Shown: positions 36,379 to 63,400 of the stretch, piece after piece
How positions within the stretch are numbered: the stretch's first letter is position 1
Layout: each line of letters opens with the position of its first letter
NCBI GenBank assembly: GCA_964019135.1
Contig: OZ025265.1
Location: forward strand, 19,071,143 to 19,135,142
DNA: 64,000 bases
Direction of reading: 5' to 3'
From: Arenicola marina
Taxonomy: Eukaryota > Annelida > Polychaeta > Arenicolidae
Translations under genes and position numbers: made by a program
Notes under the pieces: model-generated
Seen by the model: the letters and a program-made list of their open reading frames with translations, nothing else
Database searches by the model: none
Told to the model about the DNA's origin: nothing

Positions 36379-36490
36379 ACGGAGACCAGTCGGAGTCTGG
36401 AGTCAGCCAGCAACCGGGACTCTGACATCACTGCCATCCACGCCTCGGCGGTCAATGGAGACAAGTCGTCCCTCGCCAAGCTGCTGCTGT
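36379..36490 (+). CDS. INVS: INVS exon: N-terminal segment and ankyrin repeat 1
   Basis: It reads [19 protein letters not shown] then [18 protein letters not shown], matching human VHAAAVNGDKGALQRLIV. The acceptor is TATCCATCCAG; the donor T|GTAAGT is phase 1. The last 25 exonic bases and the donor are the founder of the 43-bp array that follows. Confidence 0.93.
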
Positions 36491-39400
36491 GTAAGTACGC
36501 TAGACAATTCGTACCCCGCCAAGCTGCTGCTGTGTGAGTACCATAGACGATTAATACCTCGCCAAGCTGCTGCTGTGTGAGTACCATAGACGATTCGTCC
36601 CTCGCCAAGCTGCTGCTGTGTAAGTACGCTGGACAATTCGTACCTCGCCAAGCTGCTGCTGTGTGAGTGCCATAGACGATTAATACCTCGCCAAGCTGCT
36701 GCTGTGTGAGTACCATAGACGATTCGTCCCTCGCCAAGCTGCTGCTGTGTAAGTACGCTAGACAATTCGTACCCTGCCAAGCTGCTGCTGTGTGAGTACC
36801 ATAGACGATTCGTACCCCGCCAAGCTGCTGCTGTGTAAGTACCCTAGACGATTAATACCTCGCCAAGCTGCTGCTGTGTGAGTACCATAGACGATTCGTC
36901 CCTCGCCAAGCTGCTGCTGTGTAAGTACGCTAGACAATTCGTACCCTGCCAAGCTGCTGCTGTGTGAGTACCATAGACGATTAATACCTCGCCAAGCTGC
37001 TGCTGTGTGAGTACCCTGGACGATTCGTACCCCGCCAAGCTGCTGCTGTGTGAGTACCATAGACGGTTAATACCTCGCCAAGCTGCTGCTGTGTGAATAT
37101 CATAGACGATTCGTCCCTCGCCAAGCTGCTGCTGTGTGAGTACCCTAGACGATTCGTCCCTCGCCAAGCTGCTGCTGTGTGAGTACCATAGACGATTCGT
37201 CCCTCGCCAAGCTGCTGCTGTGTGAGTACCATAGACGATTAATACCTCGCCAAACTGCTGCTATGTAAGTACCCTAGACGATTAATACCTCGCCAAGCTG
37301 CTGCTGTGTGAGTACCATAGACGATTCGTACCCCGCCAAGCTGCTGCTATGTGAGTACCATAGACGATTAATACCTCGCCAAGCTGCTGCTGTGTGAGTA
37401 CCATAGACGATTCGTCCCTCGCCAAGCTGCTGCTGTGTGAGTACCATAGACGATTAATACCTCACCAAGCTGCTGCTGTGTGAGTACCCTAGACGATTCG
37501 TACCCCGCCAAGCTGCTGCTGTGTGAGTACCATAGACGATTAATACCTCGCCAAGCTGCTGCTGTGTGAGTACCATAGACGATTCGTACCTCGCCAAGCT
37601 GCTGCTGTGTGAGTACCCTAGACGATTCGTACCTCGCCAAACTGCTGCTGTGTGAGTACCATATACGATTTGTACCTCGCCAAGCTGCTGCTGTGTGAGT
37701 ACCATAGACGATTAATACCTCGCCAAGCTGCTGCTGTGTGAGTACCCTAGACGATTCGTACCTCGCCAATCTGCTGCTATGTAAGTACCCTAGACGATTC
37801 GTACCCCGCCAAGCTGCTGCTGTGTGAGTACCATAGACGATTAATACCTCGCCAAGCTGCTGCTGTGTGAGTACCATAGACGATTCGTCCCTCGCCAAGC
37901 TGCTGCTGTGTGAGTACCATAGACGATTAATACCTCGCCAAGCTGCTGCTGTGTGAGTACCATAGACGATTCGTACCTCGCCAAGCTGCTGCTGTGTGAG
38001 TACCATAGACGATTCGTACCTCGCCAAGCTGCTGCTGTGTGAGTACCATAGACGATTCGTACCTCGCCAAGCTGCTGCTGTGTGAGTACCCTAGACGATT
38101 CGTACCTCGCCAATCTGCTGCTATGTAAACACCCTCGACGATTCGTACCTCGCCAAGCTGCTGCTGTGTAAGTACCCTAGACGATTCGTATCCGGTACAA
38201 AAGATTCCATGGGGCAATGTGATGAACGGATGGAACAGCCTGAAACCCAGATGTAATCGTATGGTTTGCTGTCATATGCGCTACCACGGCCAATACTTAA
38301 GAATGTCAGAGCTGTTTGTTTAGGAAAATCTACATTCCTATAATTTATTATGTTAAATTACATTACATGGCATTATTTTATATGATATTATACTGTGTCA
38401 GGTCATGTTCTATGTACTATACTATACTATATCATACCATACTATACTATACTAGTATATTATAATATACTATAGTTCATCACATTGTATTGCATTGCAT
38501 TGCAGTCCATTTTATTCAATTTTATTTTAATATTTCATGTATATTATTATTATTATTATTATTATTACAATTTTTATATATATTGTATATAATTGATTTT
38601 TAATTACACCACCCAGCCCAGAGCCTCGATCTGGATGCGGGCGACAAGTTTGGTCGGACTGCGCTGATGTACTGCGTGCTGGGGGACCGGCTGGAGTGCG
38701 CCGAGATGCTGTTGCGGGCCGGGGCGGGGGTCAACATCCACGACGTGGGGGGGCGCACGGCGCTCCACTGGGCCGCCCACCGGGGCAACTTCCGCTGCCT
38801 CAAGTCGCTGCTATCCCGCGGCGCCAACTGGCAGACGAAGGACAACGAAGGTCAGACGGCGATGCACCTGTCGACACGTCACAAGTCGCCCAAGTGTCTG
38901 GCGCTGTTGATGAAACAGCTGGAGCCGGGGAGGTGGACGGGCAGGACAAAAATAAGGTGAGAGGGGGACGGGGGAGGGGGAGGGGGGAGGGGGGTGGGTG
39001 GAGGGGTGGGAGAGGTAGACGGGCAGGACAAGAAGGTGAGGGGTGGGGGGAGGAGGAGGAGGGGGGGGAGTGGACGGCTAGGACAAGAATGGGGTGAGGG
39101 TGGGGGGAGGGGGAGGGGGAGGGCATGGGGGAGTGGTGGGGAGGGGAGGTGGGAGGTCGACTGGCAGGACAAGAATAAGGTGAAAGGGGAGGGGGAGTGG
39201 GGGTAGGGGAGGACAAGAACAAGGTGAGAGGGGAGGGGAGGGGAGGGGGAGGGCGTGGGAGGAGGGGTGGGGGGAATGGGGAGGTGGACGGGCAGGAGGG
39301 GTGGGGGGAATGGGGAGGTGGACGGGCAGGACAACATTTAGCTAAGGGGAGGGGGAAGGTGGACAGGTGGTAGGTGGACAGTAGGACGGATGGCGTAAAG

Positions 39401-42400
39401 TTTGTGACGGTTAGAATGATTCTAAACCGCCCACCTTTATAAACCGGCTATATCCGCGCCAATCGCGTCAATCGCGCCGTCCACTGTTGATAGTAATAGT
39501 GACTCAACATCAGCTTCTACCGCTTTTTACCGTATCTTTCATACCTCTTTCGTTCATATATGGATGGTAACGATCAATCTGTTCTCCCACGTCCCATTGT
39601 TGATAAATCTATGGGTTGACTTGCACGTGGTTTGTGAGTATGTATCGCCATGGTAACCCTTCCCTGATTCACTCTCATAGCGGACGGCGCTGCACTGTGC
39701 GGCGAGCTACGGCAACATGGAGCACGTCCGGATGCTCATCAAGCAGGACTCCAACATCGGGATCCCGGATGTGGAGGGCAAGACGCCGCTGCATTGGGCG
39801 GCCAGCAGCGCGGACGGCCAGGCTGTGGGGTGCGTCAAGCTTATCCTGGTGAGTGGCGCTCTCTATGTGGAGCTTGTCCTGGTGAGTGGCGCCCTCTATG
39901 TGAAACTGATTCTGGTGAGTGGCGCCCTCTATGTGGAACTGATCCTGGTGAGTGGCGCCCTCTATGTGAAACTGATCCTGGTGAGTGGCGCCCTCTACGT
40001 GGAACTTGTCCTGGTGTGTGGCGCCCTTTTTTGTGAAACTGATCCTGGTAGGTGGCGCCCTCTATGCGAAACTGATCCTGGTGAGTGGCGCCCTCTATGT
40101 GAAGCTTGTCCTGGTGAGTGGCCCTCTCTATGTGAAACTGATCCTGGTGAGTGGCGCCCTCCATGTGAAATTGATCCTGGTGAGTGGCGCCCTCTATGTG
40201 GAGCTTGTCCTGGTGAGTGGCGCCCTCTATGTGAAACGGATCCTGGTGAGTGGCGCCCTCTATGCAAAGCTGATCCAGGTGAGTGGCGCCCTCTATGTGA
40301 AACTGATCCTGGTGAGTGGCGCCCTCTATGTGAAACTAATCCTGGTGAGTGGCGCCCTCTACGTGGAGCTTGTCCTGTTGAGTGGCGCCCTCTATATGAA
40401 ACTTATCCTGGTGAGTGGCGCCCTCTACGTGGAGCTTTTCCTGGTGAGTGGCGCCCTCTATGTGAAACTGATCCTGGTGAGTGGCGCCCTCTATGTGAAA
40501 ATGATCCTGGTGAGTGGCGCCCTCTAGGTGAAACTGATCCTGGTGAGTGGCGTCCTCTATGTGGAGCTTGTCCTGGTGAGTGGCCCTCTCTATGTGAAAC
40601 TGATCCTGGTGAGTGGCGCCCTCCATGTGAAACTGATCCTGGTGAGTGGCGCCCTCTATGTGGAGCTTGTCCTGGTGAGTGGCGCCCTCTATGTGAAACG
40701 GATCCTGGTGAGTGGCGCCCTCTATGCAAAGCTGATCCAGGTGAGTGGCGCCCTCTATGTGAAACTGATCCTGGTGAGTGGCGCCCTCTATGTGAAACTA
40801 ATCCTGGTGAGTGGCGCCCTCTACGTGGAGCTTGTCCTGTTGAGTGGCGCCCTCTATATGAAACTTATCCTGGTGAGTGGCGCCCTCTACGTGGAGCTTT
40901 TCCTGGTGAGTGGCGCCCTCTATGTGAAACTGATCCTGGTGAGTGGCGCCCTCTATGTGAAAATGATCCTGGTGAGTGGCGCCCTCTAGGTGAAACTGAT
41001 CCTGGTGAGTGGCGTCCTCTATGTGGAGCTTGTCCTGGTGAGTGGCGCCCTCTATGTGAAACTGATCCTGGTGAGTGGCGCCCTCTATGTGAAACTGATC
41101 CTGGTGAGTGGCGCCCTCTATGTGAAACTGATCCTGGTGAGTGGCGCCCTCTATGTGGAGCTTGTCCTGGTGAGTGGCGCCCTCTATGTGAAACTGATCC
41201 TGGTGAGTGGCGCCCTCTACGTGAAACTGATCCTGTGGAGTGGCGCTCTCTACGTGGAGCTTGTCCTGGTGAGTGGCGCCCTTTTTTGTGAAACTGATCC
41301 TGGTAGGTGGCGCCCTCTATGCGAAACTGATACTGGTGAGTGGCGCCCTCTATGTGGAGCTTGTCCTGGTGAGTGGCCCTCTCTATGTGAAACTGATCTT
41401 GGTGAGTGGCGCCCTCTATGTGAAACTGATCCTGGTGAGTGGCGCCCTCTATGTGGAGCTTGTCCTGGTTAGTGCCGCCCTCTATGTGAAACCGATCCTG
41501 GTGAGTGGCGCCCTCTATGTGAAACTGATCCTGGTGAGTGGCGCCCTTTATGTGAAACTGATCCTGGTAGGTGGCGCCCTTTATGTGAAACTGATCCTGG
41601 TGAGTGGCGCCCTCTATGTGGAGCTTGTCCTGGTGAGTGGCGCCCTCTATGTGAAACTGATCTTGGTTAGTGGCGCCCTCTATGTGAAACTGATCCTGGT
41701 GAGTAGCGCCCTCAATGTGAAACTGATCCTGGTGAGTGGCGCCCTCCATGTGGAACTGATCTTGGTGAGTGGCGCCCTCCATGTGCAACAGATCCTGGTG
41801 AGTGGCGCCCTCTACGTGGAGCTTGTCCTGGTGAGTGGCACCCATTTTTGTGAAACTGATCCTGGTAGGTGGCGCCCTCTATACGAAACTGATCCTGGTG
41901 AGTGGCGCCTTCTATGTGGAGCTTGTCCTGGTGAGTGGCCCTCTCTATGTGAAACTGATCCTGGTGAGTGGCGCCCTCTATGTGAAACTGATCCTGGTGA
42001 GTGGCGCCCTCTATATGAAACTGATACTGGTGAGTGGCGCCCTCTATGTGGAGCTTGTCCTGGTGAGTGGCGCCCTCTATGTGGAGCTGATCCTGGTGAG
42101 TGGCGCCCTCTATGCGAAGCTGATCCAGGTGAGTGGCGCCCTCTATATTAAACTGATCCTGGTGAGTGGCGCCCTCTATGTGAATCTTATCCTGGTGAGT
42201 GGCTCCCTCTATGCGAAACTGATCCTGGTGAGTGGCGCCCTCTATGTGGAGCTTGTCCTGGTGAGTGGCGCCCTCTATGTCAAACTGATCTTGGTGAGTG
42301 GCGCCCTCTATGTGAAACTGATCCTGGTGAGTGGCGCTCTCTATGTGAAACTGATCCTGGTGAGTGGCGCCCTCTATGTGAAGCTGATCCTGGAAATGAT

Positions 42401-45400
42401 GGAATTAGGTCCGCCGTGTTTTGTCCTTTGGCACGACTAGCAATGTCATAAAGCATTAAACACTAAACATGTTTAATTGAGCAATTTAAAAATTCTAACC
42501 ACGACTAATGCAAGTAATATGTGAGCTGTGCGGGGATAAAACGAACGAACGATTTGCTCCCGCATGACGCTGTATGGATGTTGGGTGAACTGAAAAGAAA
42601 CCTTGAAGTTACTGTTTTATTACAGGAGACAACTCCCAGTGTAATCAACTGGCAGGACTTCGAGGGCCGGACAGCGCTCCACCTAGCGGTAGCGGACGGC
42701 AATGTAGCCGTGGTCAAGGCTCTGGTGAGTCACGTGGGAGTCACCGGTTATAAGTATTTGTGTCGCTAGGTGGCGTCCCGACTGATACCAATTTAATTGG
42801 AATTAAACTTACGGCCAAAAAGGCTATTTCGTATTTTACTGCGTAAAATCATAATGATGAATTAAAAAACAACTAATCGGCAGTTGGCGGTTATATGGTG
42901 GGCGGTTATCAAAAGTTGTGAGGTACAAAGCAGAGGGAAGTATTCGTTCTCATCGTAGAATATTTGGAGAACCGTAGAACCAAAGTCGTTCCGGTTTTGC
43001 CTCCGACCTTATGGTTCTTTACTCATACACTGTGTCATTCAACGTTCTGCTTAACGATGTTTTTAGATATTAGAATCTATGTTAAGTAAACGTTATATTT
43101 CGGTGTGTGATTCTTCTTCTTCTTCTTCTTACTATTATTATTATTATTATTATCATCACTACTGTATATATTCCAGGAATTATTTCCATATTAATGATAG
43201 AAATATTATATGTTATTACTGATATTGACATCACTGTTGAGGAACAATAACACTTATTACGCGCCTCATAATACAGCAACTATTATTAATACAATTATTT
43301 TATGTTTTAAACTTAATAGTTTCACCTTCATTGTATATTTGTTATTGTAGGTACTACTGTCGCTTACTGATGGTCGTCTGATCGGTTTGTGTTTTGCAGG
43401 TTTCCTTGGAGACGTGCAACGTGTCAGCGCTCGACAACTCCTTCCGGACGCCTCTACACTGGGCCGCCGTGCTAGGTCGGTAGAGGGCGCCACGGGTGTT
43501 TCATCAAACGCTAATTATATTTACCTTTCTCGTTTTAACATAAGAGAATATAACACTTCATTTAACGTTGGTACAAAGGGTTGAAATTAACACTCAGTGG
43601 CCGCTCCAGGATTTCGCCAAAGGTGTGTGTTTGGGGGGGGGGGGGGGGGGGCACAAGTCTGAAAGATGTGAGTTTAGCGTCTAAATCCCGCCAAAAATCT
43701 TTCCACGACGTGCCCCCTGTGCCCCCTGGATCCGCCACTGACACTTACCCGCTATTAACCGTCAATGACATCCGGATGACACTGTATGAACCTTCATCTC
43801 AATACTCTGTCAGTAATTAAAGCTGCTCATTAATGTTTCACCTTATTATTACCACACTCTCCATCCAATTGGCTTTAACGCTTTTATTTCCACATACACC
43901 GTATACTGTGTCTTTACTCCCTATCTAGTTAAGTTAGTGTCTTTCGTAAACGGCATTGGATGATGAGTTAAAGATACATTCATACGCTATTAGAAATGCC
44001 AGTGAAGCCCAAACTACCGCTGCGTGACCGGAACAAATATACGGAATCGGGTCAGAATTGACTACACACGTGTGACTGAAACCTTCATCCTCTTCAATCT
44101 CACTGTCCTGAGGTTATTGTTCCCAACTCCCAACGAGTGACGTGGTTTATCTAATAAATAAAGATCATATGTGTTTCCCACACATTGCCAGGACACTCGC
44201 AGATCTCGGAGATGTTGCTGGAGGCACAAGCAGACTGGTCCAGCTCAGACGCTAGCGGGGCGGTCCCTCTACACTACGCAGCGCAAAACGACTTCGCCGT
44301 AAGTGTGACTGACCAAGTCACGGCATTTGCCTCTTTACCGGCTCGACTGTTTGACCGATCTTTCTCACTTTCATTTTAATTTAGAATCAAAAATGCTGCT
44401 GGAAATCTGATGTAATTTCCAGATGTTTCGATTTAATGTTAGTATTATATATACAAATATAATATCAAATTTTATGTCAATAAAATACATCAGAATTGGT
44501 TAAAGCGTCCTGAAGATACAACCAACCAGCCAATGTTTTATAATGGAGTAGTAGCCCAAATAAAGGCACTCGGCTAAGCGGACTTTATTAAGATCAATGA
44601 TTTTACTGGCGGTATAAAGGTTAATACGTGTGATGCGGAAGCAATGAAATCTATTAAAGTGAGTAGTAAAGACTGTACGCTTTGTCTGTGATGTTTTCTA
44701 AAAAGCAAATATGAATGAAATAAATGTATTTTTCATTGTGATCTCGTTGAACTCTCGCCAGGACACGGTGCGGGTGTTCCTGAAGTGACCAGAATTGGTT
44801 AAAGCGTCCTGAATATACAACCACTCCTCTCTCCAGGACACGGTGCGGGTGTTCCTGAAGTGACCAGAATTGGTTAAAGCGTCCTGAATATACAACCACT
44901 CCTCTCTCCAGGACACGGTGCGGGTGTTCCTGAAGTGACCAGAATTGGTTAAAGCGTCCTGAATATACAACCACTCCTCTCTCCAGGACACGGTGCGGGT
45001 GTTCCTGAAGTGGCCCGGGATGAAGGACGAGCCAGACATCGAGGGGAGGACGGCCTTCTGCTGGGCCGCCAGCAAGGGAGCTGACCTCGTGCTCCGGACG
45101 TTCCTGGCCCAGCGGGTCGACATGCTCCAGACAGACAAGACCGGAGGCACCGGTCAGTGACGTCACAGACGCCATCCCACGCCTCAACTTGAAATTTTTT
45201 TTTTAATATTTAAAGTTTTGGCTAGTGTCATCACCATCGTAGGCCTAAGCTTTAATATTTATTAACTTTTATTTATATATAAAGTTTTGCATAGTTTCGT
45301 CACCATCGTCGGCCTAAGTTTTAATATTTACTCTTTATATTTAAGGTTTTGGTCAGGGTCATCACCATTGTAGGCCTGAACTTTAGCATTTTGAATTATA

Positions 45401-48400
45401 TAATATTTAAATCTTTGTCCGTGTCTTCACCACCGTAGGCCTAAACTTAAAATTTTAGGAATTGTTTAATATATATTTAGGTTTCGTCAGTGTCTTCAAC
45501 CTTTAATATTTATTAGCGCTTGATATATATTTTAAATTATTGATGAATTATGTCAGCATCTTAGGCCTCAATTTGGATATTTGTGAACGTAGCTTTAGAT
45601 ATTAGAGGTGTTGGTCAGTGACGTCCCCATCATTGGCCGGTTATACTTATTAACTTTGTTCACATATAAATTATTGGTTAGTCACGTCACTACCATGGGC
45701 CTAAAATGTAATATTTATACTTTTTGTAACATTTAAAGCATTTGCCAATGATAACCCTAGCATTGGCCTAAACATTCACACTTAACTTTAATATTTATTA
45801 ACTTTTTAAACATCTGAAGTATCGATGAACGACGTCACCATCCATCCTGAATTTCTACTTTAATATAAATTTGCCCCCCCCCCGCCCGCCCTCCACCCCC
45901 CCCCCTCTAGCGCTGCACGCCGCTGCCATGGCTGGCCACCCCGGCACCGTGCTGCTGCTGCTGGACAGGGGCGCCCACATCAACATGACGGACCTACAGA
46001 AGCACACGCCGCTGTTCCGCGCCTGTGAGATGGGTCACATGGAGGTCGCACGTTCGCTGATAGACCGGGGGGCCAAGGTGGACATGGTCGACCTGGACGG
46101 CAGGGCTCCGCTCCACTGGTAGGTTTGGGGGGGCTGGGGGGGAGGTGGGGGGGGGCGCCAAGGTGGACATGGTCGACCTGGACGGCAGGGCTCCGCTCCA
46201 CTGGTAGGTATGGGGGGCCTGGGGGGGAGGTGGGCGGGGGGGCGCCAAGGTGGACATGGTCGACCTGGACGGCAGGGCTCCGCTCCACTGGTAGGTTTGG
46301 GGGGGCTGGTGGGGAGGTGGGGGGGGGCGCCAAGGTGGACATGGTCGACCTGGACGGCAGGGCTCCGCTCCACTGGTAGGTATGGGGGGGCTGGGGAGGA
46401 GGTGGGCGGGGGGGCGCCAAGGTGGACATGGTCGACCTGGACGGCAGGGCCCCGCTCCACTGGTAGGTATGGGGGGGGGGGGGTGGGGCCAAGATGGACA
46501 TGGTCGACCTGGACGGCAGGGCCCCGCTCCACTGGTACGTATGGGGGGGGGGGGGGCGGGGGGGAGGGGGAGCGCCAAGGTGGACATAGTCGATCTGAAC
46601 GGCAGGGCCCTCCTCCGCTGGTACGTATAGAGGGGCTGGAAAGGGGGAGGGGTGGAGAGGCCGGAGGGGGGCTAGAAGAAGGAGGGGGGTGCGGCAGGGG
46701 GGACGGCGGGGGGTGGTCGCAAAACCATTTTGCCCAGAAAAAATGTACCAGGGGGGCGGTAAGATACTTTGGCCCGAAAAATTGGGGGGAGGGGGGCATT
46801 ACTTATTTTTTGATTCCCGCAATTGGCAGCCTGCAATTAACTGTTGAACATTTTGTGTCCATCCTGATTTGTACTATTCTTGGGTCAACGCGAAGAGCCT
46901 TAATTACCTTGATCCGCTACAACACTCACGAAATAATTGTTGTATTATCATCCTAGATATTGGTATATCTAGAATTTAAATATATGTTGTTATTTATTCC
47001 TGTTATAATGGTGTTTTTAGTTTATTTTACTGTTAAATGTAACGATTACAATGTGTTAATGTGTTAGTTCCCGAGTCTTTACAAGAAAGTAACATAGTCT
47101 GCCTCCGTTAATTGCATTTCTTTTCAAATGAATGGCAGAAGCTGGAATTTCGTCACAGACGTGAACTTGACCTGATATTTTCATTCTCCCGCAGGGCGGC
47201 GCTGGGTGGACACGCACTCATCTGTCAGACACTCATCAAGTATGGCATTAGCCCAAACATACGGGACAACTCCGGGTAAGCCTACAATGTGGTGTGCAGA
47301 GAAACCTTCATCCTGGTATAAATTCGAAACAGTCCCGAAGTCCCCAAGTTCTCCTATATAAATGATATATAATATAAATAAATATTATAAATAGTATATA
47401 AATGAGTTTCACTTCTTGGCATCCGAAAAATTTTCATTCTCATGATTCGTTATTTCTCAATGACCTAATGTAACTATACAAAAGTACGATTTTGCCAGAT
47501 GTAGTTGACATTGCGTGTGGGTTGTCGTATTGTAAGTGACTTGAACAAGGAGTAGGCTGCCGGTGGAAGAAAATCTGCGCTAACTCTCAATGTGCCCATC
47601 AGAGACTGACTTTTTTTCTTCAAAACTGCATTTCTTGACTATATCTTCCAGTTTATATCAAAAGCGTTCATATAATTAATCTCCGTATACTTTGCAAGAA
47701 TTGTCAGTATATATTTTGCATGCCATTTTTAGCCAAATAATTCTCTCCGAATGACCACAAAAAACGCGCACTTTTATTTCATTCTCCAAATGCCCTCTAT
47801 GGCCTGGGCGACACCTCCTCCCCCCCCTCCCCCCCCCGGGGGTGGAAGGTTGTTGCTTTATGTGATGATCTACGTCTCCAGTTGACGGTCTCTGTGTGTC
47901 CCGCAGACGGACTCCGCTGCAGTGCGCGGCATATGGCGGATTCGTCAACTGTATGTCAATCCTGATCGAGCACAAAGCTGACCCGGATACCCGAGACAGA
48001 GAGGTCAGTCAGTCAATCCACCAGCCGCTACCAGACCGATCCAGGCTGTCAATCATTCACTGACGTCACCGTAGCTTTTATCCAATCATGTGGCGAAAAA
48101 AAAGTCTTCGGTGTGCGTCATGTCGGACAAACAAGTTGGACAAACAAAGCAGCATGTCACTTTCTTGTCATTTTTAGAGATGAGTACTCTCAATTTTAAT
48201 TTCATGCTTACGATTAAGGAAAAGGACTCAAGAGTGGGCGGGGCTTAGTGTCAGAGTGTGGATGGGTCTATTGTCTGTCTGTAGAAACTTGCGCTTGGAA
48301 AACGACTTTGCATTACTTGTATATATATGGACTCGATCCGCCTAGAAACTTGCGCTTGGAAAACGACTTTGCATTACTTGTATATATATGGACTCGATCC

Positions 48401-51400
48401 GCCAGTATTTCTGCTACAACTTCCCAGGGTGGCTGGGGAAAATAAACAAATCTGGCGGCCCATTTTACATATTTTATTCTGATTGGTGTCATACCCAGCA
48501 AATGTCGCAACGTCGCAAACGTAATGTACCCATTTCCGGCAGGCAAACATGGCGGCATGTCTTGAAACTCCTTGAACGTGTCAAAATCGGTCGCGTGATC
48601 AATTTTTATATTTTATGCTTGTAAATCCATTATTGTCATAAAGGGAACGATTGATGGTTCATAAAACGCGGCGCACTTGTTTAGCCCTGTGGGTGTGCGA
48701 TAAGCGTGGGTGATAGTACGTGGCTTTATGTCTATATCCGGAGTGCAAGAGCGGATCCAGCTGGGGGGTGGGGGGCGAGGGAGGGGTCCCAGCCGGTCTT
48801 AAAAAAATGGTGAACCCCTGGTCGCAACTTTTCTAGAGCCCCCCATCCCGGTCGCCAAATTTCAGTGGACCCTCCCCCACTTTTTTTCAATCTTCCTGGA
48901 TCCGCCCCCAGGTGGGGCCCGGCTTGGTTAGTGGTAGAATATGATCCCCTGACAGAACGTAGATCGGCTGCTTAAATAATGTTGTTCAGCCGAGTAACAC
49001 AGTAAATATCTCCTCAACTTGTATTACATTATTTACGGTATTTCAATGCCATAATTATACATCTTGTATAACATTATTTACGGTATTTCAATGCCATAAT
49101 TATACATCTTGTATTACATTATTTACGGTATATCAATGCCATACTTATACATCTTGTATTACATTATTTACGGTCTTGAAATGTCATAATGTGGCATATT
49201 ATCTGCCATAACCTGCTTGCGTGATGTATTTTTAGGGTATGACGTCACTGCACTGGGCCTGCAGTAAAGGTCACCTTGACGCGGTCAAGTTGCTGATCGA
49301 GCACCACGCATTCCCTAACAACATGGAGTTCACCGAGGACAGGTGCGAGCCTCGGCAATATGCCCGGATGTACCGCCATTGGGATAGATTTTTTCGAAAT
49401 TTGGATTTTTTCTTGTGATGCGTTTCAAAGTGTCATAGTGGTTGATACATACTCACGGAAACGCACTTCTTACAGAGGCGTAGGCAGGGACTCGAGCAAG
49501 TGTACACACCAGCTGCACAGTAAATGAAACAAATTACTGCCAAACAACAGGATTGCACTTACGGACACGTGCGTACGTGCTTACGGCTGGCTACGCCCCG
49601 GTCTTATATTTTAATAACTAAGATAGGGTCATAAGAGTGACACACATCCTAACCTAAGCACAGACGCGGTCAGGCTTCACCAAATGACAATTCCAGCAAT
49701 TTATCCCTATAACCGTTTTAGTTCTTTTGCGAAAGTTCTTGAAATCAAATCCATTGCTTGAATAACAATATTTGGACAAAAAATAAAAAAATGGTGCCTT
49801 CCGTGAGCATATGATCGGGCGAACAACTCCATCCCATATCGATTGAACTAAACGAACGATCTTGCTTTGTGGCATCAGGTCCGGGATAAACCCACCCCGC
49901 ACTCTGTGACAGGCTACGTCTGAAAACGTGGGACCCTTGGCAAACTTGGCAAACTACGATTTGCCCTGGCGATGGGATTTTCGCGCGAGAAAATGCATGT
50001 GATTTTGCAATCGCTTTCTGATGCATTCTGTTTAGCCCAGTGTGTAATGTAGCCAGCGGGTGCACAAAAGTGGCCGAACACACTAACCCATGCATCCATC
50101 CATCCATTCATCCATCCATCCATCCATCCATCCATCCATCCATCCATCCATCCATTCATCCTTGCATTCTCTCTTGCTATGGAAGATTGCATTATAGACG
50201 CTTGTGTTTTGTGTTATAGGTACACCCCGCTGGACTATGCGCTGATGGGTGAGCACTATGAGGTGGCTCAGTACATGATAGAGTCTGGAGCACTGTCCAT
50301 CACAGGCATACAGGACATAGCCGCCCATAAGATACAGGCAAGTACCTCCCCTAGCGTACAATATCCTGTAGCTCAGTACATGATAGAGTCTGGAGCACTG
50401 TCCATCACAGGTATACAGGACATAGCCGCTCATAAGATACAGGCAAGTACCTTCCCTAGCATACAATATCCTGTAGCTCAGTACATGATAGAGTCTGGGG
50501 CACTGTCCATCACAGGCATACAGGACATAGCCGCTCATAAGATACAGGCAAGTACCTTCCCTAGCATACAATATCCTGTAGCTCAGTACATGATAGAGTC
50601 TGGGGCACTGTCCATCACAGGCATACAGGACATAGCCACCCATAAGATAGGGCAAGTACCTCCCCTAGCGTACAGTATCCTGTAGCTCAGTACATGATAG
50701 AGTCTGGAGCACTGTCCATCACAGGCATACAGGACATAGCCACCCATAAGATACAGGCAAGTACCTCCCCTAGCATACAATATCCTGTAGCTCAGTACAT
50801 GATAGAGTCTGGAGCACTGTCCATCACAGGCATACAGGACATAGCCACCCATAAGATAGGGCAAGTACCTCCCCTAGCGTACAATATCCTGTAGCTCAGT
50901 ACATGATAGAGTCTGGAGCACTGTCCATCATAGGCATTCAGGACATAGCCACCCATAAGATACAGGCAAGTACCTCCCCTAGCATACAATATCCTGTAGC
51001 TCAGTACATGATAGAGTCTGGAGCACTGCCCATCACAGGCATACAGGACATAGCCGCTCATAAGATACAGGCAAGTACCTCCCCTGGCATACAATATCCT
51101 GTAGCTCAGTACATGATAGAATCTGGAGCACTGTCCATCACAGGCATACAGGACATAGCCACCCATAAGGTACAGGCAAGTACCTCCCCTAGCATACAAT
51201 ATCCTGTAGCTCAGTACATGATAGAGTCTGGAGCACTGTCCATCACAGGCATACAGGACACAGCCACCCATAAGATACAGGCAAGTACCTCCCCTAGCAT
51301 ACAATATCCTGTAGCTCAGTACATGATAGAGTCTGGGGAACTGTCCATCACAGGCATACAGGACATAGCCGCCCATAAGATACAGGCAAGTACCTCCCCT

Positions 51401-54400
51401 ACCGTACAATATCCTGTAGCTCAGTACATGATAGAGTCTGGAGCACTGTCCATCACAGGCATAGAGGACATAGCCACCCATAAGATACAGGCAAGTACCT
51501 CCCCTGGCGTACAATATCCTGTAGCTCAGTACATGATAGAGTCTGGGGCACTGTCCGTCACAGGCATACAGGACATAGCCACCCATAAGATACATGCAAG
51601 TACCTCCCCTAGCATACAATATCCTGTAGCTCAGTACATGATAGAGTCTGGAGCACTGTCCATCACAGGCATACAGGACATAGCCACCCATAAGATACAG
51701 GCAAGTACCTCCCCTAGCATACAATATCCTGTAGCTCAGTACATGATGGGAGTCTGGAGCACTGTCCATCACAGGCATACAGGACATTGCCGCCCATAAG
51801 ATACAGGCAAGTACCTCCCCTAGCATACAATATCCTGTAGCTCAGTACATGGTGGAGTCTGGGGCACTGTCCATCACAGGCATACAGGACATAGCCACCC
51901 ACAAGATAGGGCAAGTACCTCTCCTAGCATACAATATCCTGTAGCACAGTACATGGTGGAGTCTGGGGCACTGTCCATCACAGGCATACAGGACATAGCC
52001 GCCCATAAGATACAGGCAAGTACCTTCCCTAGCATACAATATCCTGTAGCTCAGTACATGATAGAGTCTGGGGCACTGTCCATCACAGGCATACAGGACA
52101 TAGCCGCTCATAAGATACAGGCAAGTACCTTCCCTAGCATACAATATCCTGTAGCTCAGTACATGATAGAGTCTGGGGCACTGTCCATCACAGGCATACA
52201 GGACATAGCCACCCATAAGATAGGGCAAGTACCTCCCCTAGCGTACAGTATCCTGTAGCTCAGTACATGATAGAGTCTGGAGCACTGTCCATCACAGGCA
52301 TACAGGACATAGCCACCCATAAGATACAGGCAAGTACCTCCCCTAGCATACAATATCCTGTAGCTCAGTACATGATAGAGTCTGGAGCACTGTCCATCAC
52401 AGGCATACAGGACATAGCCGCTCATAAGATACAGGCAAGTACCTCCCCTGGCATACAATATCCTGTAGCTCAGTACATGATAGAGTCTGGAGCACTGTCC
52501 ATCACAGGCATACAGGACATAGCCACCCATAAGATAGGGCAAGTACCTCCCCTAGCGTACAATATCCTGTAGCTCAGTACATGATAGAGTCTGGAGCACT
52601 GTCCATCATAGGCATTCAGGACATAGCCACCCATAAGATACAGGCAAGTACCTCCCCTAGCATGTAATATCCTGTAGCTCAGTACATGATGGGAGTCTGG
52701 AGCACTGTCCATCACAGGCATACAGGACATTGCCGCCCATAAGATACAGGCAAGTACCTCCCCTGGCATACAATATCCTGTAGCTCAGTACATGATAGAG
52801 TCTGGAGCACTGCCCATCACAGGCATACAGGACATAGCCGCTCATAAGATACAGGCAAGTACCTCCCCTGGCATACAATATCCTGTAGCTCAGTACATGA
52901 TAGAGTCTGGAGCACTGTCCATCACAGGCATACAGGACATAGCCACCCATAAGGTACAGGCAAGTACCTCCCCTAGCATACAATATCCTGTAGCTCAGTA
53001 CATGATAGAGTCTGGAGCACTGTCCATCACAGGCATACAGGACACAGCCACCCATAAGATACAGGCAAGTACCTCCCCTAGCATACAATATCCTGTAGCT
53101 CAGTACATGATAGAGTCTGGAGCACTGTCCATCACAGGCATAGAGGACATAGCCACCCATAAGATACAGGCAAGTACCTCCCCTAGCGTACAATATCCTG
53201 TAGCTCAGTACATGATAGAGTCTGGGGCACTGTCCATCACAGGCATACAGGACATAGCCACCCATAAGATACATGCAAGTACCTCCCCTAGCATACAATA
53301 TCCTGTAGCTCAGTACATGATAGAGTCTGGAGCACTGTCCATCACAGGCATACAGGACATAGCCACCCATAAGATACAGGCAAGTACCTCCCCTAGCATA
53401 CAATATCCTGTAGCTCAGTACATGATGGGAGTCTGGAGCACTGTCCATCACAGGCATACAGGACATTGCCGCCCATAAGATACAGGCAAGTACCTCCCCT
53501 AGCATACAATATCCTGTAGCTCAGTACATGGTGGAGTCTGGGGCACTGTCCATCACAGGCATACAGGACATAGCCACCCACAAGATAGGGCAAGTACCTC
53601 TCCTAGCATACAATATCCTGTAGCACAGTACATGGTGGAGTCTGGGGCACTGTCCATCACAGGCATACAGGACATAGCCGCCCATAAGATACAGGCAAGT
53701 ACCTCCCCTAGCATACAATATCCTGTAGCTCAGTACATGGTGGAGTCTGGAGCACTGTCCATCACAGGCATACAGGACATAGCCGCCCATAAGATACAGG
53801 CAAGTACCTCCCCTAGCATACAATATCCTGTAGCTCAGTACATGATAGAGTCTGGAGCACTGTCCATCACAGGCATACAGGACATAGCCGCTCATAAGAT
53901 ACAGGCAAGTACCTCCCCTAGCATACAATATCCTGTAGCTCAGTACATGGTGGAGTCTGGGGCACTGTCCATCACAGGCATACAGGACATAGCCACCCAT
54001 AAGATAGGGCAAGTACCTCTCCTAGCATACAATATCCTGTAGCTCAGTACATGATAGAGTCTGGAGCACTGTCCATCACAGGCATACAGGACATAGCCGC
54101 CCATAAGATACAGGCAAGTACCTCCCCTAGCATACAATATCCTGTAGCTCAGTACATGGTGGAGTCTGGAGCACTGTCCATCACAGGCATACAGGACATA
54201 GCCGCTCATAAGATACAGGCAAGTACCTCCCCTAGCGTACAATATCCTGTAGCTCAGTACATGATAGAGTCTGGAGCACTGTCCATCACAGGCATACAGG
54301 ACATAGCCACCCATAAGATACAGGCAAGTACCTCCCCTAGCATACAATATCCTGTAGCTCAGTACATGATAGAGTCTGGGGCACTGTCCATCACAGGCAT

Positions 54401-57400
54401 ACAGGACATAGCCGCCCATAAGATACAGGCAAGTACCTCCCCTAGCATACAATATCCTGTAGCTCAGTACATGATAGAGTCTGGGGCACTGTCCATCACA
54501 GGCATACAGGACATAGCCGCCCATAAGATACAGGCAAGTACCTCCCCTAGCATACAATATCCTGTAGCTCAGTACATGGTGGAGTCTGGAGCACTGTCCA
54601 TCACAGGCATACAGGACATAGCCGCCCATAAGATACAGGCAAGTACCTCCCCTAGCATACAATATCCTGTAGCTCAGTACATGATAGAGTCTGGGGCACT
54701 GTCCATCACAGGCATACAGGACATAGCCGCTCATAAGATACAGGCAAGTACCTCCCCTAGCGTACAATATCCTGTAGCTCAGTACATGATGGAGTCTGGA
54801 GCACTGTCCATCACAGGCATACAGGACATAGCCGCCCATAAGATACAGGCAAGTACCTCCCCTAGCATACAATATCCTGTAGCTCAGTACATGGTGGAGT
54901 CTGGAGCACTGTCCATCACAGGCATACAGGACATAGCCGCCCATAAGATACAGGCAAGTACCTCCCCTAGCATACAATATCCTGTAGCTCAGTACATGAT
55001 AGAGTCTGGGGCACTGTCCATCACAGGCATACAGGACATAGCCGCTCATAAGATACAGGCAAGTACCTCCCCTAGCGTACAATATCCTGTAGCTCAGTAC
55101 ATGATGGAGTCTGGGGACTGTCCATCACAGGCATACAGGACATAGCCGCCCATAAGATACAGGCAAGTACCTCCCCTAGCGTACAATATCTTGTACCTCA
55201 GTACATGGTGGAGTCTGGGGCACTGTCCATCACAGGCATACAGGACATAGCCGCCCATAAGATACAGGCAAGTACCTCCCCTAGCATACAATATCCTGTA
55301 GCTCAGTACATGGTGGAGTCTGGGGCACTGTCCATCACAGGCATACAGGACATAGCCACCCATAAGATACAGGCAAGTACCTCCCCTAGCATACAATATC
55401 CTGTAGCTCAGTACATGATAGAGTCTGGGGCACTGTCCATCACAGGCATACAGGACATAGCCACCCATAAGATACAGGCGAGTACCTCCCCTAGCATATA
55501 ATATTCTGTAGCTCAGTACATGATAGAGTCTGGGGCACTGTCCATCACAGGCATACAGGACATAGCCACCCATAAGATACAGGCAAGTACCTCCCCTAGC
55601 GTACAGTATCCTGTAGCTCAGTACATGATAGAGTCTGGGGCACTGTCCATCACAGGCATACAGGACATAGCCGCCCATAAGATACAGGCAAGTACCTCGC
55701 CTAGCATACAATATCCTGTAGCTCAGTACATGATAGAGTCTGGAGCACTGTCCATCACAGGCATACAGGACATAGCCACCCATAAGATACAGGCAAGTAC
55801 CTCCCCAAGCGTACAATATCCTGTAGCTCAGTACATGATAGAGTCTGGAGCACTGTCCATCACAGGCATACAGGACATAGCCACCCATAAGATACAGGCA
55901 AGTACCTCCCCAAGCATACAATATCCTGTAGCTCAGTACATGATAGAGTCTGGAGCACTGTCCATCACAGGCATACAGGACATAGCCACCCATAAGATAG
56001 GGCAAGTACCTCCCCTAGCATACAATTTCCTGTAGCTCAGTACATGATAGAGTCTGGGGCACTGTTCATCACAGGCATACAGGACATAGCCACCCATAAG
56101 ATAGGGCAAGTACCTCCCCTAGCATACAATTTCCTGTAGCTCAGTACATGATTAAGGCTGGGGCACTGTCCATCACAGGCATACAGGACATAGCCACCCA
56201 TAAGATACAGGCAAGTACCTCCCCTAGCATACAATATCCTGTAGCTCAGTACATGATAGAGTCTGGGGCACTGTCCATCACAGGCATACAGGTCATAGCC
56301 ACCCATAAGATACAGGCAAGTACCTCCCCTAGCGTACAATATCATGTAGCTCAGTACATGGTGGAGTCTGGGGCACTGTCCATCACAGGCATACAGGACA
56401 TAGCCACCCATAAGATACAGGCAAGTACCTCCCCTAGCGTACAATATCCTGTAGCTCAGTACATGGTGGAGTCTGGGGCACTGTCCATCACAGGCATACA
56501 GAACATAGCCGCCCATAAGATAGGGCAAGTACCTCCCCTAGCATACAATATCCTGTAGCTCAGTACATGGTGGAGTCTGGGGCACTGTCCATCACAGGCA
56601 TACAGGACATAGCCGCCCATAAGATACAGGCAAGTACCTCCCCTAGCATACAATATCCTGTAGCTCAGTACATGATAGAGTCTGGAGCACTGTCCATCAC
56701 AGGCATACAGGACATAGACACCCATAAGATAGGGCAAGTACCTCCCCTAGCATACAATATCCTGTAGCTCAGTACATGATGGAGTCTGGAGCACTGTCCA
56801 TCACAGGCACACAGGACATAGCCGCCCATAAGATACAGGCAAGTACCTCCCCTGGCATACAATATCTTGTAGCTCAGTACATGATAGAGTCTGGGGCACT
56901 GTCCATCACAGGTATACAGGACATAGCCGCCCATAAGATACAGGCAAGTACCTCCCCTAGCATACAATATCCTGTAGCTCAGTACATGATAGAGTCTGGG
57001 GCACTGTTCATGACAGGCATACAGGACATAGCCACTCATAAGATACAGGCAAGTACCTCCCCTAGCATACAATATCCTGTAGCTCAGTACATGATAGAGT
57101 CTGGGGCACTGTCCATCACAGGCATACAGGACATAGCCGCCCATAAGATACAGGCAAGTACCTCCCCTAGCATACAATATCCTGTAGCTCAGTACATGAT
57201 AGAGTCTGGGGCACTGTCCATCACAGGCATACAGGACATAGCCACCCATAAGATACAAGCAAGTACCTCCCCTAGCATACAATATCCTGTAGCTCAGTAC
57301 ATGATAGAGTCTGGAGCACTGTCCATCACAGGCATACAGGACATAGCCGCCCATAAGATACAGACAAGTACCTCCCCTAGCGTACAATATCCTATAGCTC

Positions 57401-60400
57401 AGTACATGATAGGGTCTGGAGCACTGTCCATCACAGGCATACAGGACATAGCCACCCATAAGATAGGGCAAGTACCTCCCCTAGCATACAATATACTGTA
57501 GCTCAGTACATGATGGAGTCTGGAGCACTGTCCATCACAGGCATACAGGACATAGCCACCCATAAGATACAGGCAAGTACCTCCCCTAGCGTACAATATC
57601 CTGTAGCTCAGTACATGGTGGAGTCTGGGGCACTGTCCATCACAGGCATACAGGACATAGCCACCCATAAGATACAGGCAAGTACCTCCCCTAGCGTACA
57701 ATATCCTGTAGCTCAGTACATGGTGGAGTCTGGAGCACTGTCCATCACAGGCATACAGGACATAGCCGCCCATAAGATACAGACAAGTACCTCCCCTAGC
57801 ATACAATATCCTCTAGCTCAGTACATGGTGGAGTCTGGGGCACTGTCCATCACAGGCATACAGGACATAGCCACCCATAAGATACAGGCAAGTACCTCCC
57901 CTAGCATACAATATCCTGTAGCTCAGTACATGATAGAGTCTGGAGCACTGTCCATCACAGGCATACAGGACATAGCCGCCCATAAGATACAGGCAAGTAC
58001 CTCCCCTAGCATACAATATCCTGTAGCTCAGTACATGATAGAGTCTGGAGCACTGTCCATCACAGGCATACAGGACATAGCCGCCCATAAGATACAGACA
58101 AGTACCTCCCCTAGCGTACAATATCCTGTAGCTCAGTACATGGTGGAGTCTGCGGCACTGTCCATCACAGGCATACAGGACATAGCCACCCATAAGATAC
58201 AGGCAAGTACCTCCCCTAGCATACAATATCCTGTAGCTCAGTACATGATAGAGTCTGGAGCACTGTCCATCACAGGCATACAGGACATAGCCGCCCATAA
58301 GATACAGACCAGTACCTCCCCTAGCGTACAATATCCTGTAGCACAGTACATGATAGAGTCTGGAGCACTGTCCATCACAGGCATACAGGACACAGCCACC
58401 CATAAGATACAGGCAAGTACCTCCCCTAGCATACAATATCCTGTAGCTCAGTACATGATAGAGTCTGGAGCACTGTCCATCACAGGCATACAGGACATAG
58501 CCGCCCATAAGATACAGGCAAGTACCTCCCCTAGCGTACAATATCCTGTAGCTCAGTACATGATAGAGTCTGGAGCACTGTCCATCACAGGCATACAGGA
58601 CATAGCCGCCCATAAGATACAGACAAGTACCTCCCCTAGCATACAATATCCTGTAGCTCAGTACATGATGGAGTCTGGAGCACTGTTCATCACAGGCATA
58701 CAGGACATAGCCGCCCATAAGATACAGGCAAGTACCTCCCCTAGCGTACAATATCCTGTAGCTCAGTACATGATGGAGTCTGGAGCACTGTCCATCACAG
58801 GCATACAGGACATAGCCGCCCATAAGATACAGGCAAGTACCTCCCCTAGCGTACAATATCCTGTAGCTCAGTACATGATGGAGTCTGGAGCACTGTCCAT
58901 CACAGGCATACAGGACATAGCCGCCCATAAGATACAGGCAAGTACCTCCCCTAGCATACAATATCCTGTAGCTCAGTACATGATAGAGTCTGGAGCACTG
59001 TCCATCACAGGCATACAGGACATAGCCGCCCATAAGATACAGACAAGTACCTCCCCTAGCGTACAATATCCTGTAGCTCAGTACATGATGGAGTCTGGAG
59101 CACTGTCCATCACAGGCATACAGGACATAGCCGCCCATAAGATACAGGCAAGTACCTCCCCTAGCGTACAATATCCTGTAGCTCAGTACATGATGGAGTC
59201 TGGAGCACTGTCCATCACAGGCATACAGGACATAGCCACCCATAAGATACAGGCAAGTACCTCCTCTAGCGTACAATATCCTGTAGCTCAGTACATGATA
59301 GAGTCTGGAGCACTGTCCATCACAGGCATACAGGACATAGCCACCCATAAGATACAGGCAAGTACCTCCCCTAGCATACAATATCCTGTAGCTCAGTACA
59401 TGATAGAGTCTGGAGCACTGTCCATCACAGGCATACAGGACATAGCCACCCATAAGATACAGGCAAGTACCTCCTCTAGCGTACAATATCCTGTAGCTCA
59501 GTACATGATAGAGTCTGGAGCACTGTCCATCACAGGCTTACAGGACATAGCCACCCATAAGATACAGGCAAGTACCTCCCCTAGCATACAATATCCTGTA
59601 GCTCAGTACATGATAGAGTCTGGAGCACTGTCCATCACAGGCATACAGGACACAGCCACCCATAAGATACAGGCAAGTACCTCCCCTAGCATACAATATC
59701 CTGTAGCTCAGTACATGATAGAGTCTGGAGCACTGTCCATCACAGGCATACAGGACATAGCCACTCATAAGATACAGGCAAGTACCTCCCCTAGCGTACA
59801 ATATCCTGTAGCTCAGTACATGATGGAGTCTGGAGCACTGTCCATCACAGGCATACAGGACATAGCCGCTCATAAGGTACAGGCAAGTACCTCCCCTAGC
59901 ATACAATATCCTGTAGCTCAGTACATGATGGAGTCTGGAGCACTGTCCATCACAGGCATACAGGACATAGCCGCCCATAAGATGCAGGCAAGTACCTCCC
60001 CTAGCGTACAATATCCTGTAGCTCAGTACATGATGGAGTCTGGAGCACTGTCCATCACAGGCATACAGGACATAGCCACCCATAAGATACAGGCAAGTAC
60101 CTCCTCTAGCGTACAATATCCTGTAGCTCAGTACATGATAGAGTCTGGAGCACTGTCCATCACAGGCATACAGGACATAGCCACCCATAAGATACAGGCA
60201 AGTACCTCCCCTAGCGTACAATATCCTGTAGCTCAGTACATGATGGAGTCTGGAGCACTGTCCATCACAGGCATACAGGACATAGCCACCCATAAGATAC
60301 AGGCAAGTACCTCCTCTAGCGTACAATATCCTGTAGCTCAGTACATGATAGAGTCTGGAGCACTGTCCATCACAGGCATACAGGACATAGCCACCCATAA

Positions 60401-63400
60401 GATACAGGCAAGTACCTCCCCTAGCATACAATATCCTGTAGCTCAGTACATGATAGAGTCTGGAGCACTGTCCATCACAGGCATACAGGACACAGCCACC
60501 CATAAGATACAGGCAAGTACCTCCCCTAGCATACAATATCCTGTAGCTCAGTACATGATAGAGTCTGGAGCACTGTCCATCACAGGCATACAGGACATAG
60601 CCACTCATAAGATACAGGCAAGTACCTCCCCTAGCGTACAATATCCTGTAGCTCAGTACATGATAGAGTCTGGGGCACTGTCCATCACAGGCATACAGGA
60701 CATAGCCACCCATAAGATACAGGCAAGTACCTCCTCTAGCGTACAATATCCTGTAGCTCAGTACATGATGGAGTCTGGAGCACTGTCCATCACAGGCATA
60801 CAGGTCATAGCCACCCATAAGATACAGGCAAGTACCTCCCCTAGCATACAATATCCTGTAGCTCAGTACATGATGGAGTCTGGAGCACTGTCCATCACAG
60901 GCATACAGGACATAGCCACCCATAAGATACAGGCAAGTACCTCCCCTAGCATACAATATCCTGTAGCTCAGTACATGATAGAGTCTGGAGCACTGCCCAT
61001 CACAGGCATACAGGACACAGCCACCCATAAGATACAGGCAAGTACCTCCCCTAGCATACAATATCCTGTAGCTCAGTACATGATAGAGTCTGGAGCACTG
61101 TCCATCACAGGCATACAGGACATAGCCACTCATAAGATACAGGCAAGTACCTCCCCTAGCGTACAATATCCTGTAGCTCAGTACATGATAGAGTCTGGGG
61201 CACTGTCCATCACAGGCATACAGGACACAGCCACCCATAAGATACAGGCAAGTACCTCCTCTAGCATACAATATCCTGTAGCTCAGTACATGATAGAGTC
61301 TGGAGCACTGTCCATCACAGGCATACAGGACATAGCCGGCCATAAGATACAGGCAAGTACCTCCCCTAGCGTACAATTTCCTGTAGCTCAGTACATGATA
61401 GAGTCTGGAGCACTGTCCATCACAGGCATACAGGACATAGCCACCCATAAGATACAGGCAAGTACCTCCCCTAGCATACAATATCCTGTAGCTCAGTACA
61501 TGATAGAGTCTGGAGCACTGTCCATCACAGGCATACAGGACACAGCCACCCATAAGATACAGGCAAGTACCTCCCCTAGCATACAATATCCTGTAGCTCA
61601 GTACATGATAGAGTCTGGAGCACTGTCCATCACAGGCATACAGGACATAGCCACTCATAAGATACAGGCAAGTACCTCCCCTAGCGTACAATATCCTGTA
61701 GCTCAGTACATGATAGAGTCTGGGGCACTGTCCATCACAGGCATACAGGACATAGCCACCCATAAGATACAGGCAAGTACCTCCTCTAGCGTACAATATC
61801 CTGTAGCTCAGTACATGATGGAGTCTGGAGCACTGTCCATCACAGGCATACAGGTCATAGCCACCCATAAGATACAGGCAAGTACCTCCCCTAGCATACA
61901 ATATCCTGTAGCTCAGTACATGATGGAGTCTGGAGCACTGTCCATCACAGGCATACAGGACATAGCCACCCATAAGATACAGGCAAGTACCTCCCCTAGC
62001 ATACAATATCCTGTAGCTCAGTACATGATAGAGTCTGGAGCACTGCCCATCACAGGCATACAGGACACAGCCACCCATAAGATACAGGCAAGTACCTCCC
62101 CTAGCATACAATATCCTGTAGCTCAGTACATGATAGAGTCTGGAGCACTGTCCATCACAGGCATACAGGACATAGCCACTCATAAGATACAGGCAAGTAC
62201 CTCCCCTAGCGTACAATATCCTGTAGCTCAGTACATGATAGAGTCTGGGGCACTGTCCATCACAGGCATACAGGACACAGCCACCCATAAGATACAGGCA
62301 AGTACCTCCTCTAGCATACAATATCCTGTAGCTCAGTACATGATAGAGTCTGGAGCACTGTCCATCACAGGCATACAGGACATAGCCGGCCATAAGATAC
62401 AGGCAAGTACCTCCCCTAGCGTACAATTTCCTGTAGCTCAGTACATGATAGAGTCTGGGGCACTGTCCATTACAGGCATACAAGACATAGCCGCCCATAA
62501 GATACAGGCAAGTACCTCCCCTAGCGTACAATATCCTGTAGCTCAGTACATGATAGAGTCTGGGGCACTGTCCATCACAGGCATACAGGACATAGCCACC
62601 CATAAGATACAGGCAAGTACCTCCCCTAGCGTACAATATCCTGTAGCTCAGTACATGATAGAGTCTGTGGCACTGTCCATCACAGGCATACAGGACATAG
62701 CCGCCCATAAGATACAGGCAAGTACCTCCCCTAGCGTACAATATCCTGTAGCTCAGTACATGATGGAGTCTGGAGCACTGTCCATCACAGGCATACAGCA
62801 CATAGCCGCCCATAAGATAGGGCAAGTACCTCCCCTAGCATACAATATCCTGTAGCTCAGTACATGGTGGAGTCTGCGGCACTGTCCATCACAGGCATAC
62901 AGGACATAGCCACCCATAAGATAGGGCAAGTACCTTCTCTTGCATGCAATACCCCCCGTCATCAAGTGAGTTAAACTTTGTGAGTCACAATAAAATCGCA
63001 ATGAATCACGCTGAATCGCAATAAAGTTACATAAATCGTCATAAATGACGCTGAATCGCAAATGAAGTGTTATCCGTCGTCGTGGATCGCGCTGAATTGC
63101 AACGAAGTGCTATGCATCGTCATGAATCGCGCTGAATCGCAATGAAGTGCTATGCATCGTCATGAATCGCGCTGAATTAAAATGAGATGCTTTGCATCGT
63201 CATGAATCGCGCTGAATCGCAATGAAGTGCTATGCATCGTCATGAATCGCGCTGAATTGCAACGAAGTGCTATGCATCGTCATGAATCGCGCTGAATTAA
63301 AATGAAGTGCTATGCATCGTCATGAATCGCGCTGAATTAAAATGAAGTGCTTTGCATCGTCATGAATCGCGCTGAATCGCATTTACGCATCGCCATGAAT

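Follow-up and report, generated by a model that had tools for sequence, protein, structure and literature searches.

The INVS gene of Arenicola marina raises the question of why the edges of several of its exons, splice sites included, have been multiplied into tandem arrays in the adjoining introns, and whether this sets the gene apart from others. The arrays lie within a window of 64,000 nucleotides (the whole stretch of DNA that was analysed), part of a 33-Mb sequence (C20) in an assembly of 867 Mb and 762 contigs. The exon-edge repeats described in the original prediction were real, five being recovered cleanly by Tandem Repeats Finder (TRF) and a sixth, decayed one being recognized by eye, and its count of five donors and one acceptor within the window was correct. 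The same anatomy recurred in unrelated genes, and repeat units were concentrated within approximately 75 bp of sampled exon edges.

Exon-edge arrays in INVS

The features concerned are listed below by position in the window, with the basis of each call in brackets; SINE-like (SINE, short interspersed nuclear element) is our own label for a dispersed repeat whose family was named by no tool.

36379..36490, plus strand: INVS exon, the last 32 bases of which open the 43-bp array (exon reading, protein identity)
36459..38190, plus strand: 43-bp donor-edge array of 40 units, 40.3 copies by TRF (TRF, unit alignment)
38617..38956, plus strand: INVS exon with decayed repeats of its end behind it (exon reading)
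39018..39345, plus strand: decayed repeats of the donor edge within a G-rich stretch (seen by eye, with TRF rows inside 38961-39331)
39681..39848, plus strand: INVS exon (exon reading)
39843..42393, plus strand: 33-bp donor-edge array of 77 units, 77.2 copies by TRF (TRF, unit alignment)
44491..44530, plus strand: separate remnant of the SINE-like tail, in the same intron as the 75-bp array (sequence reading, repeat comparison)
44752..45012, plus strand: 75-bp acceptor-edge array, 3.5 copies by TRF (TRF, repeat comparison)
44987..45152, plus strand: INVS exon, its acceptor being the last copy of the 75-bp array (exon reading)
45911..46118, plus strand: INVS exon (exon reading)
46067..46639, plus strand: 85/86-bp donor-edge array, the intron part of which is G-rich (TRF, sequence reading)
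50220..50337, plus strand: INVS exon with a GC donor (exon reading)
50266..62951, plus strand: 105-bp donor-edge array of 121 units, 120.9 copies with 95% matches by TRF (TRF, unit alignment)
63653..63745, plus strand: next INVS exon, without an edge-spanning array (TRF, exon reading)

With the exception of the 75-bp acceptor unit, each edge unit was a contiguous piece of exon tail and intron head, or the reverse. The 43-bp unit consisted of 32 bp of exon tail and 11 bp of intron head, and the 105-bp unit of 72 bp of exon tail and 33 bp of intron head, the latter array spanning 12.7 kb behind a donor that is GC and not GT (106 units of 105 bp, 14 of 104 bp and one of 97 bp). The arrays extended from the exon edge into the intron, which is what tolerance by splicing requires. 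After exon 38617..38956, approximately six decayed copies of the last ~30 bases of the exon were recognized by eye, at least two of them retaining AAG/GTGA (slash at the exon-intron border); TRF did not resolve these repeats as one array. Within a G run close to the end of this exon the reading shifted by one base (LEPG, continued as EVDGQDKNK in the following frame), which may be a sequencing or assembly error or a real change. Behind exon 63653..63745 a 15-bp array began approximately 10 bp into the intron.

A seventh case was found approximately 3 kb beyond the window, where an exon at ~66850-67023 (numbering extended past the window), matching the AARVIQRAWK part of other inversins, gave way to a 66-bp array built from the exon end and donor. 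With this case added, INVS therefore carries seven edge arrays, at six donors and one acceptor. In the same numbering, a segment of approximately 1 kb containing the 66-bp array and the next exon occurred twice inside INVS (L002, 66984-69084), the repeated exon lying at 67975-68085 and again at 68974-69084.

The gene name given in the original prediction was borne out by protein matches: exons were read and their frames followed, and most of the best 120 of 6,119 protein matches were named inversin. Among the matches listed, identity was 76% to the annelid Paralvinella (93% covered), 74% to Lingula and 66% to Branchiostoma lanceolatum. The COX1 gene of the mitochondrial contig had its best match in Pilargis wolfi (92% over the whole length), and further phyllodocid annelids were among the matches that followed. 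On these comparisons the host is an annelid, probably close to Pilargidae, and the amphioxus (Branchiostoma) assumed in the original prediction was ruled out by the COX1 match together with the greater closeness of INVS to annelids than to Branchiostoma. The INVS exon had a single match in the assembly. Over the 264 kb analysed around the gene (C20 18961143-19225142), TRF arrays occupied 89,591 of 264,000 bases (34%), and 2.9% of the region once collapsed to single units.

Recurrence in other genes and excess over chance

Comparison exons were taken from genome-search matches, best-scoring candidates only (myosin head 77, kinesin 133, TCP1 49). Pairs that were neighbours both in the model and in the genome yielded 92 junctions and 150 exons, and 70 exons, picked regardless of repeats, were examined with 350 bp on each side, comprising 29 gene clusters and 140 exon ends. 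Splice sites in this sample were placed by matrix and 12 loci were inspected directly. Edge arrays including coding bases and the splice site were present at 13 of the 140 exon ends, on 11 of the 70 exons and in seven of the 29 gene clusters, located on six large sequences (C1, C7, C10, C11, C14, C17). Seven were donor arrays (L032, L040, L053, L064, L071, L083, L086) and six acceptor arrays (L032, L039, L066, L069, L071, L073). A further apparent edge array, in L089, was removed owing to a misplaced splice site. INVS had been thought exceptional as a single gene, a view that the seven other gene clusters sharing the structure overturn.

This recurrence also bears on the reading of the arrays as an assembly artefact. 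Long arrays are hard to assemble, and the frame break in the G run of exon 38617..38956 may be a sequencing error; however, 11 other exons carried the same structure, several arrays of 2 to 14 short units ended inside a 900-bp stretch, and the units of the INVS arrays differed by point changes. We regard an artefact as highly improbable.

The frequency at exon edges was compared with a null in which the same units were placed randomly in the same loci, with positions wholly inside an exon barred and the edge arrays themselves counted in the density. Units covered 4.2% of the 70 sampled loci with arrays collapsed to one unit. Against 6.0 expected, 13 of 140 exon ends were spanned (P = 0.0025), and among edges supported by a neighbouring exon the count was 9 of 100 against 4.28 (P = 0.015). 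Within INVS, a gene picked for its arrays, 7 of 36 edges lay in an array unit compared to 2.0 expected (P = 0.0018). The excess at exon edges was approximately twofold over local array density. Unit incidence was 11% at the edge (11 of 100 edge points, a count that includes two doubtful cases, L089 with its misplaced donor and the L040 acceptor, where the array merely touches the edge), 10% at 1-25 bp, and 7% and 6% up to 75 bp. It was approximately 8% up to 75 bp as a whole compared to approximately 2% beyond, where bins to 350 bp ranged from 0.6 to 4.2%.

Proposed birth and growth of the arrays

The original prediction had likened the INVS repeats to the "mirages" of amphioxus, and the likeness holds. 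Amphioxus mirages are minisatellite-like tandem duplications at 5' and 3' boundaries with units of 10 to 160 bases and splice signals in many copies, described in Adh3 and in the globins BflGb6 and BflGb9 (PMC3087553) as well as in PGBD5 and troponin C (PMC3902484). Here too, in both INVS and the sample, tandem repeats spanned the exon-intron boundary, AG/GT signals were present in many copies (275 decoy donors in 12 arrays) and both boundaries were hit (six donors and one acceptor in INVS, seven and six in the sample). The comparison is one of genomic sequence; undisturbed splicing and length instability between haplotypes or somatic cells belong to the description of the amphioxus arrays, which reportedly do not seem to disturb splicing (PMC3087553). 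Unlike amphioxus mirages, those described here have an annelid host, number seven in one gene, include an array of 121 copies and 12.7 kb, and come with a frequency sampled over other genes. Being found in cephalochordates, a trait absent here, marks where the kind was reported and is no mechanistic criterion.

On balance we favour the explanation that these are mirage-type minisatellites, that is, small tandem duplications tolerated at exon edges, with a modest hot spot at the edges, in an array-rich genome. Birth would be a duplication of tens of bases whose first unit straddles the exon edge, arising either when opposing nicks close to each other are filled in and the ends joined (PMC8355091) or through slippage from one short direct repeat to another. 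Selection would purge most duplications that touch an exon; those across a splice site would be tolerated, since with the authentic outer site in use the spare copies end up in the intron. Copy number would then rise by slippage or unequal exchange, and arrays may in addition be born modestly more often at exon edges, perhaps in connection with G-rich transcribed DNA. No function of the arrays is necessary for this explanation.

Young cases are informative on the birth step. Eight of 21 two-copy rows had 100% matches, and the perfect two-copy edge duplications of 65 bp (L063/L064) and 34 bp (L073) displayed no identity beyond the unit. Small tandem duplications have been described for induced breaks in cultured cells, where nearby nicks undergo fill-in followed by end joining (PMC8355091). 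The cases here resemble them in their size of tens of bases and, for some young ones, in the lack of junction homology, and differ in their position, the accessible text of that report drawing no link to exon edges.

Several results weigh against the favoured explanation or parts of it. Junction homology was mixed among the eight perfect rows, with none in three (61 bp at 48282, L063, L073), one short by 9, and four carrying 4, 6, 7 and 34 bases. Blunt joining is accordingly not established, and the duplications may stem from end joining where nicks lay close together (PMC8355091) or from slippage involving short repeats. The 43- and 33-bp arrays ended in 12 and 7 bases homologous to the start of the unit, which fits slippage. 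Edge arrays clustered by gene, four of the seven affected genes having two exons affected. The original prediction had allowed that overlap with exon edges might be no commoner than chance; it was commoner (13 of 140 versus 6.0), although the excess was modest and was based on 100 to 140 edges. Moreover, an annotation-free donor-motif test on 99 array units of the 264 kb that lie outside INVS, in DNA of which some share may be intergenic, gave no significant enrichment at thresholds of 7 to 11 (score of at least 9 in 3 of 99 versus 2.9 expected; at least 10 in 3 versus 1.1, P = 0.08). Finally, a lower divergence of donor bases in two of the large arrays leaves room for some constraint.

A stronger role for the edges is also conceivable, in which splice junctions themselves drive the duplications, with R-loops, G-rich nascent RNA or spliceosome pausing at donors nicking or stalling the DNA, so that edges would be true hot spots and not mere places of survival. 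A splice-junction or R-loop mechanism, as raised in the original prediction, is possible, and the peak of incidence at the edge with its drop within approximately 75 bp fits it, as does the INVS ratio of six donors to one acceptor (with the case outside the window), although donors and acceptors were nearly equal in the sample (7 versus 6). A G run of at least 6 in the first 60 intron bases was present at 5 of 13 array-bearing donors compared to 1 of 51 others (P = 0.0009 by Fisher's test; P = 0.004 for combined run length; in the sample, P = 0.003 for the number of G3 runs), in an exploratory comparison for which five measures were tried. In INVS alone, however, the difference was not significant (P = 0.21), GC skew was the same (P = 0.33), C runs were longer too (P = 0.03), and the G runs lie partly inside the units and may be a product of expansion. 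The G-run richness of array donors is a weak hint of R-loop or quadruplex involvement, and overall we consider junction-driven duplication unlikely.

The 75-bp acceptor array brought in another candidate source, namely retroposon insertion with target-site duplication. In this unit 36 of the 75 bases were exon-edge sequence (acceptor and exon head); the other 39 matched the SINE-like tail (up to 38 bases at 95%). The array consisted of four copies of the 36-bp part and three of the 39-bp part, closing with a lone 36-bp copy. The tail, GGTTAAAGCGTCCTGAATATACAACCA, was present 27 times in the 264 kb with at most five differences, including the three array copies and the remnant at 44491..44530, which may be the template of the 39-bp insert; it was also detected in L038, L073, L084 and L089. 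Near one repeat copy (~6378 in the window) lay GGTTCGAGCCC, which we take to resemble a tRNA B box. The 39-bp match sits between 36-bp copies, and 36 bp would be long for a target-site duplication; the 75-bp array may have been born by retroposon insertion with target-site duplication or by templated insertion during end joining. As a general source of exon-edge repeats, retroposon insertion is very unlikely: only 1 of 17 edge units (L069, L086 and the decayed INVS array left out) contained a dispersed repeat by comparison with the 264 kb, a comparison that would miss repeats absent from that region, and the few other matches were G-rich. With 16 of 17 units free of a repeat on this comparison, a retroposon origin for the arrays generally was rejected.

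Decoy splice sites and related systems

The 12 donor arrays (five in INVS, seven in the sample) contained 275 decoy donors, of which 212 scored at least as high as the authentic donor on a simple matrix, so sequence strength alone could not pick the authentic site there. The proportion differed between arrays: 63 of 77 decoys in the 33-bp array reached the score of the true donor, compared to 8 of 39 in the 43-bp array, where sequence strength might single out the authentic donor.

Such copies might also be kept by selection, repeated donors or exon copies being used for alternative isoforms or for in-frame peptide repeats, 33 and 105 bp being multiples of three and mostly open. In the 33-bp array the exon reading frame stayed open as far as 41291; an open frame of 1797 codons was present in the 105-bp array, where just 2 of 106 full-length units had an in-frame stop. 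On simple comparison of the values in three large arrays, divergence was lower at donor bases than elsewhere in the unit for two (0.047 versus 0.060; 0.032 versus 0.087) and higher for the third (0.036 versus 0.028); as the direction differs between arrays, these values neither establish selection on the copies nor exclude it. Against such use, units of 43 and 86 bp throw the sequence out of frame, a stop follows the exon head in the frame of the 75-bp unit, the 105-bp array has 14 units out of 121 that measure 104 bp and interrupt the frame, and no comparable inserts were seen in the sequences of four INVS relatives. We think it very unlikely that selection maintains the arrays.

Parallels outside amphioxus include repeats and duplications that cross splice boundaries. 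Human segmental duplications contain variable internal tandem repeats at exon-intron boundaries (mean 30-bp units x4), which are reported to give rise to novel introns and alternative transcripts in recent paralogs (PMC2812944). These are likewise minisatellites across the boundary; the INVS arrays are far larger and known as genomic DNA only. In potato RdRp an intron was gained by tandem duplication across an intron-exon boundary (PMC4974935), where the duplicated segment likewise crosses the boundary; there a new intron resulted, whereas here the copies apparently stay within an existing one. An intron-1 minisatellite is known from earthworm metallothionein, the accessible text making no exon-edge claim (PMC12783039). 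No report of mirages in an annelid was found in the literature searched, most subscription papers being outside its reach. The novelty lies in the phylum, in how many arrays a single gene carries, in their size (12.7 kb and 121 units) and in an estimate, drawn from the sample, of frequency and excess.

The arrays extend mirages beyond amphioxus. Ranging from two perfect copies up to 121, they also represent stages in which the birth of minisatellites, and a possible attraction to exon edges, can be studied. If the sampled rate (13 of 140) holds, an extrapolation in which genome exons are uncounted, the genome could contain thousands of natural tests of splice-site choice. It is a tentative and rather doubtful generalization that in some animal lineages, amphioxus and annelids independently, exon edges act as a general mutational hot spot where minisatellites are born, and that splicing routinely meets from tens to more than 100 equivalent 5' splice sites and still takes the outermost, by position and not by sequence.

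Two minor observations concern arrays outside INVS. Each unit of the L086 donor array comprised a C tract, CACAG, a short copy of the exon and GTACGT, and thus resembles a possible micro-exon. Strong donor-like sites were also present in two further arrays, L017 (-65775..-65074 in numbering extended from the window) and L011 (-1308..-610), the sites being AAGGTGAGT (minus strand) and CAGGTGAGA; these may be further edge arrays, belonging to unannotated genes.

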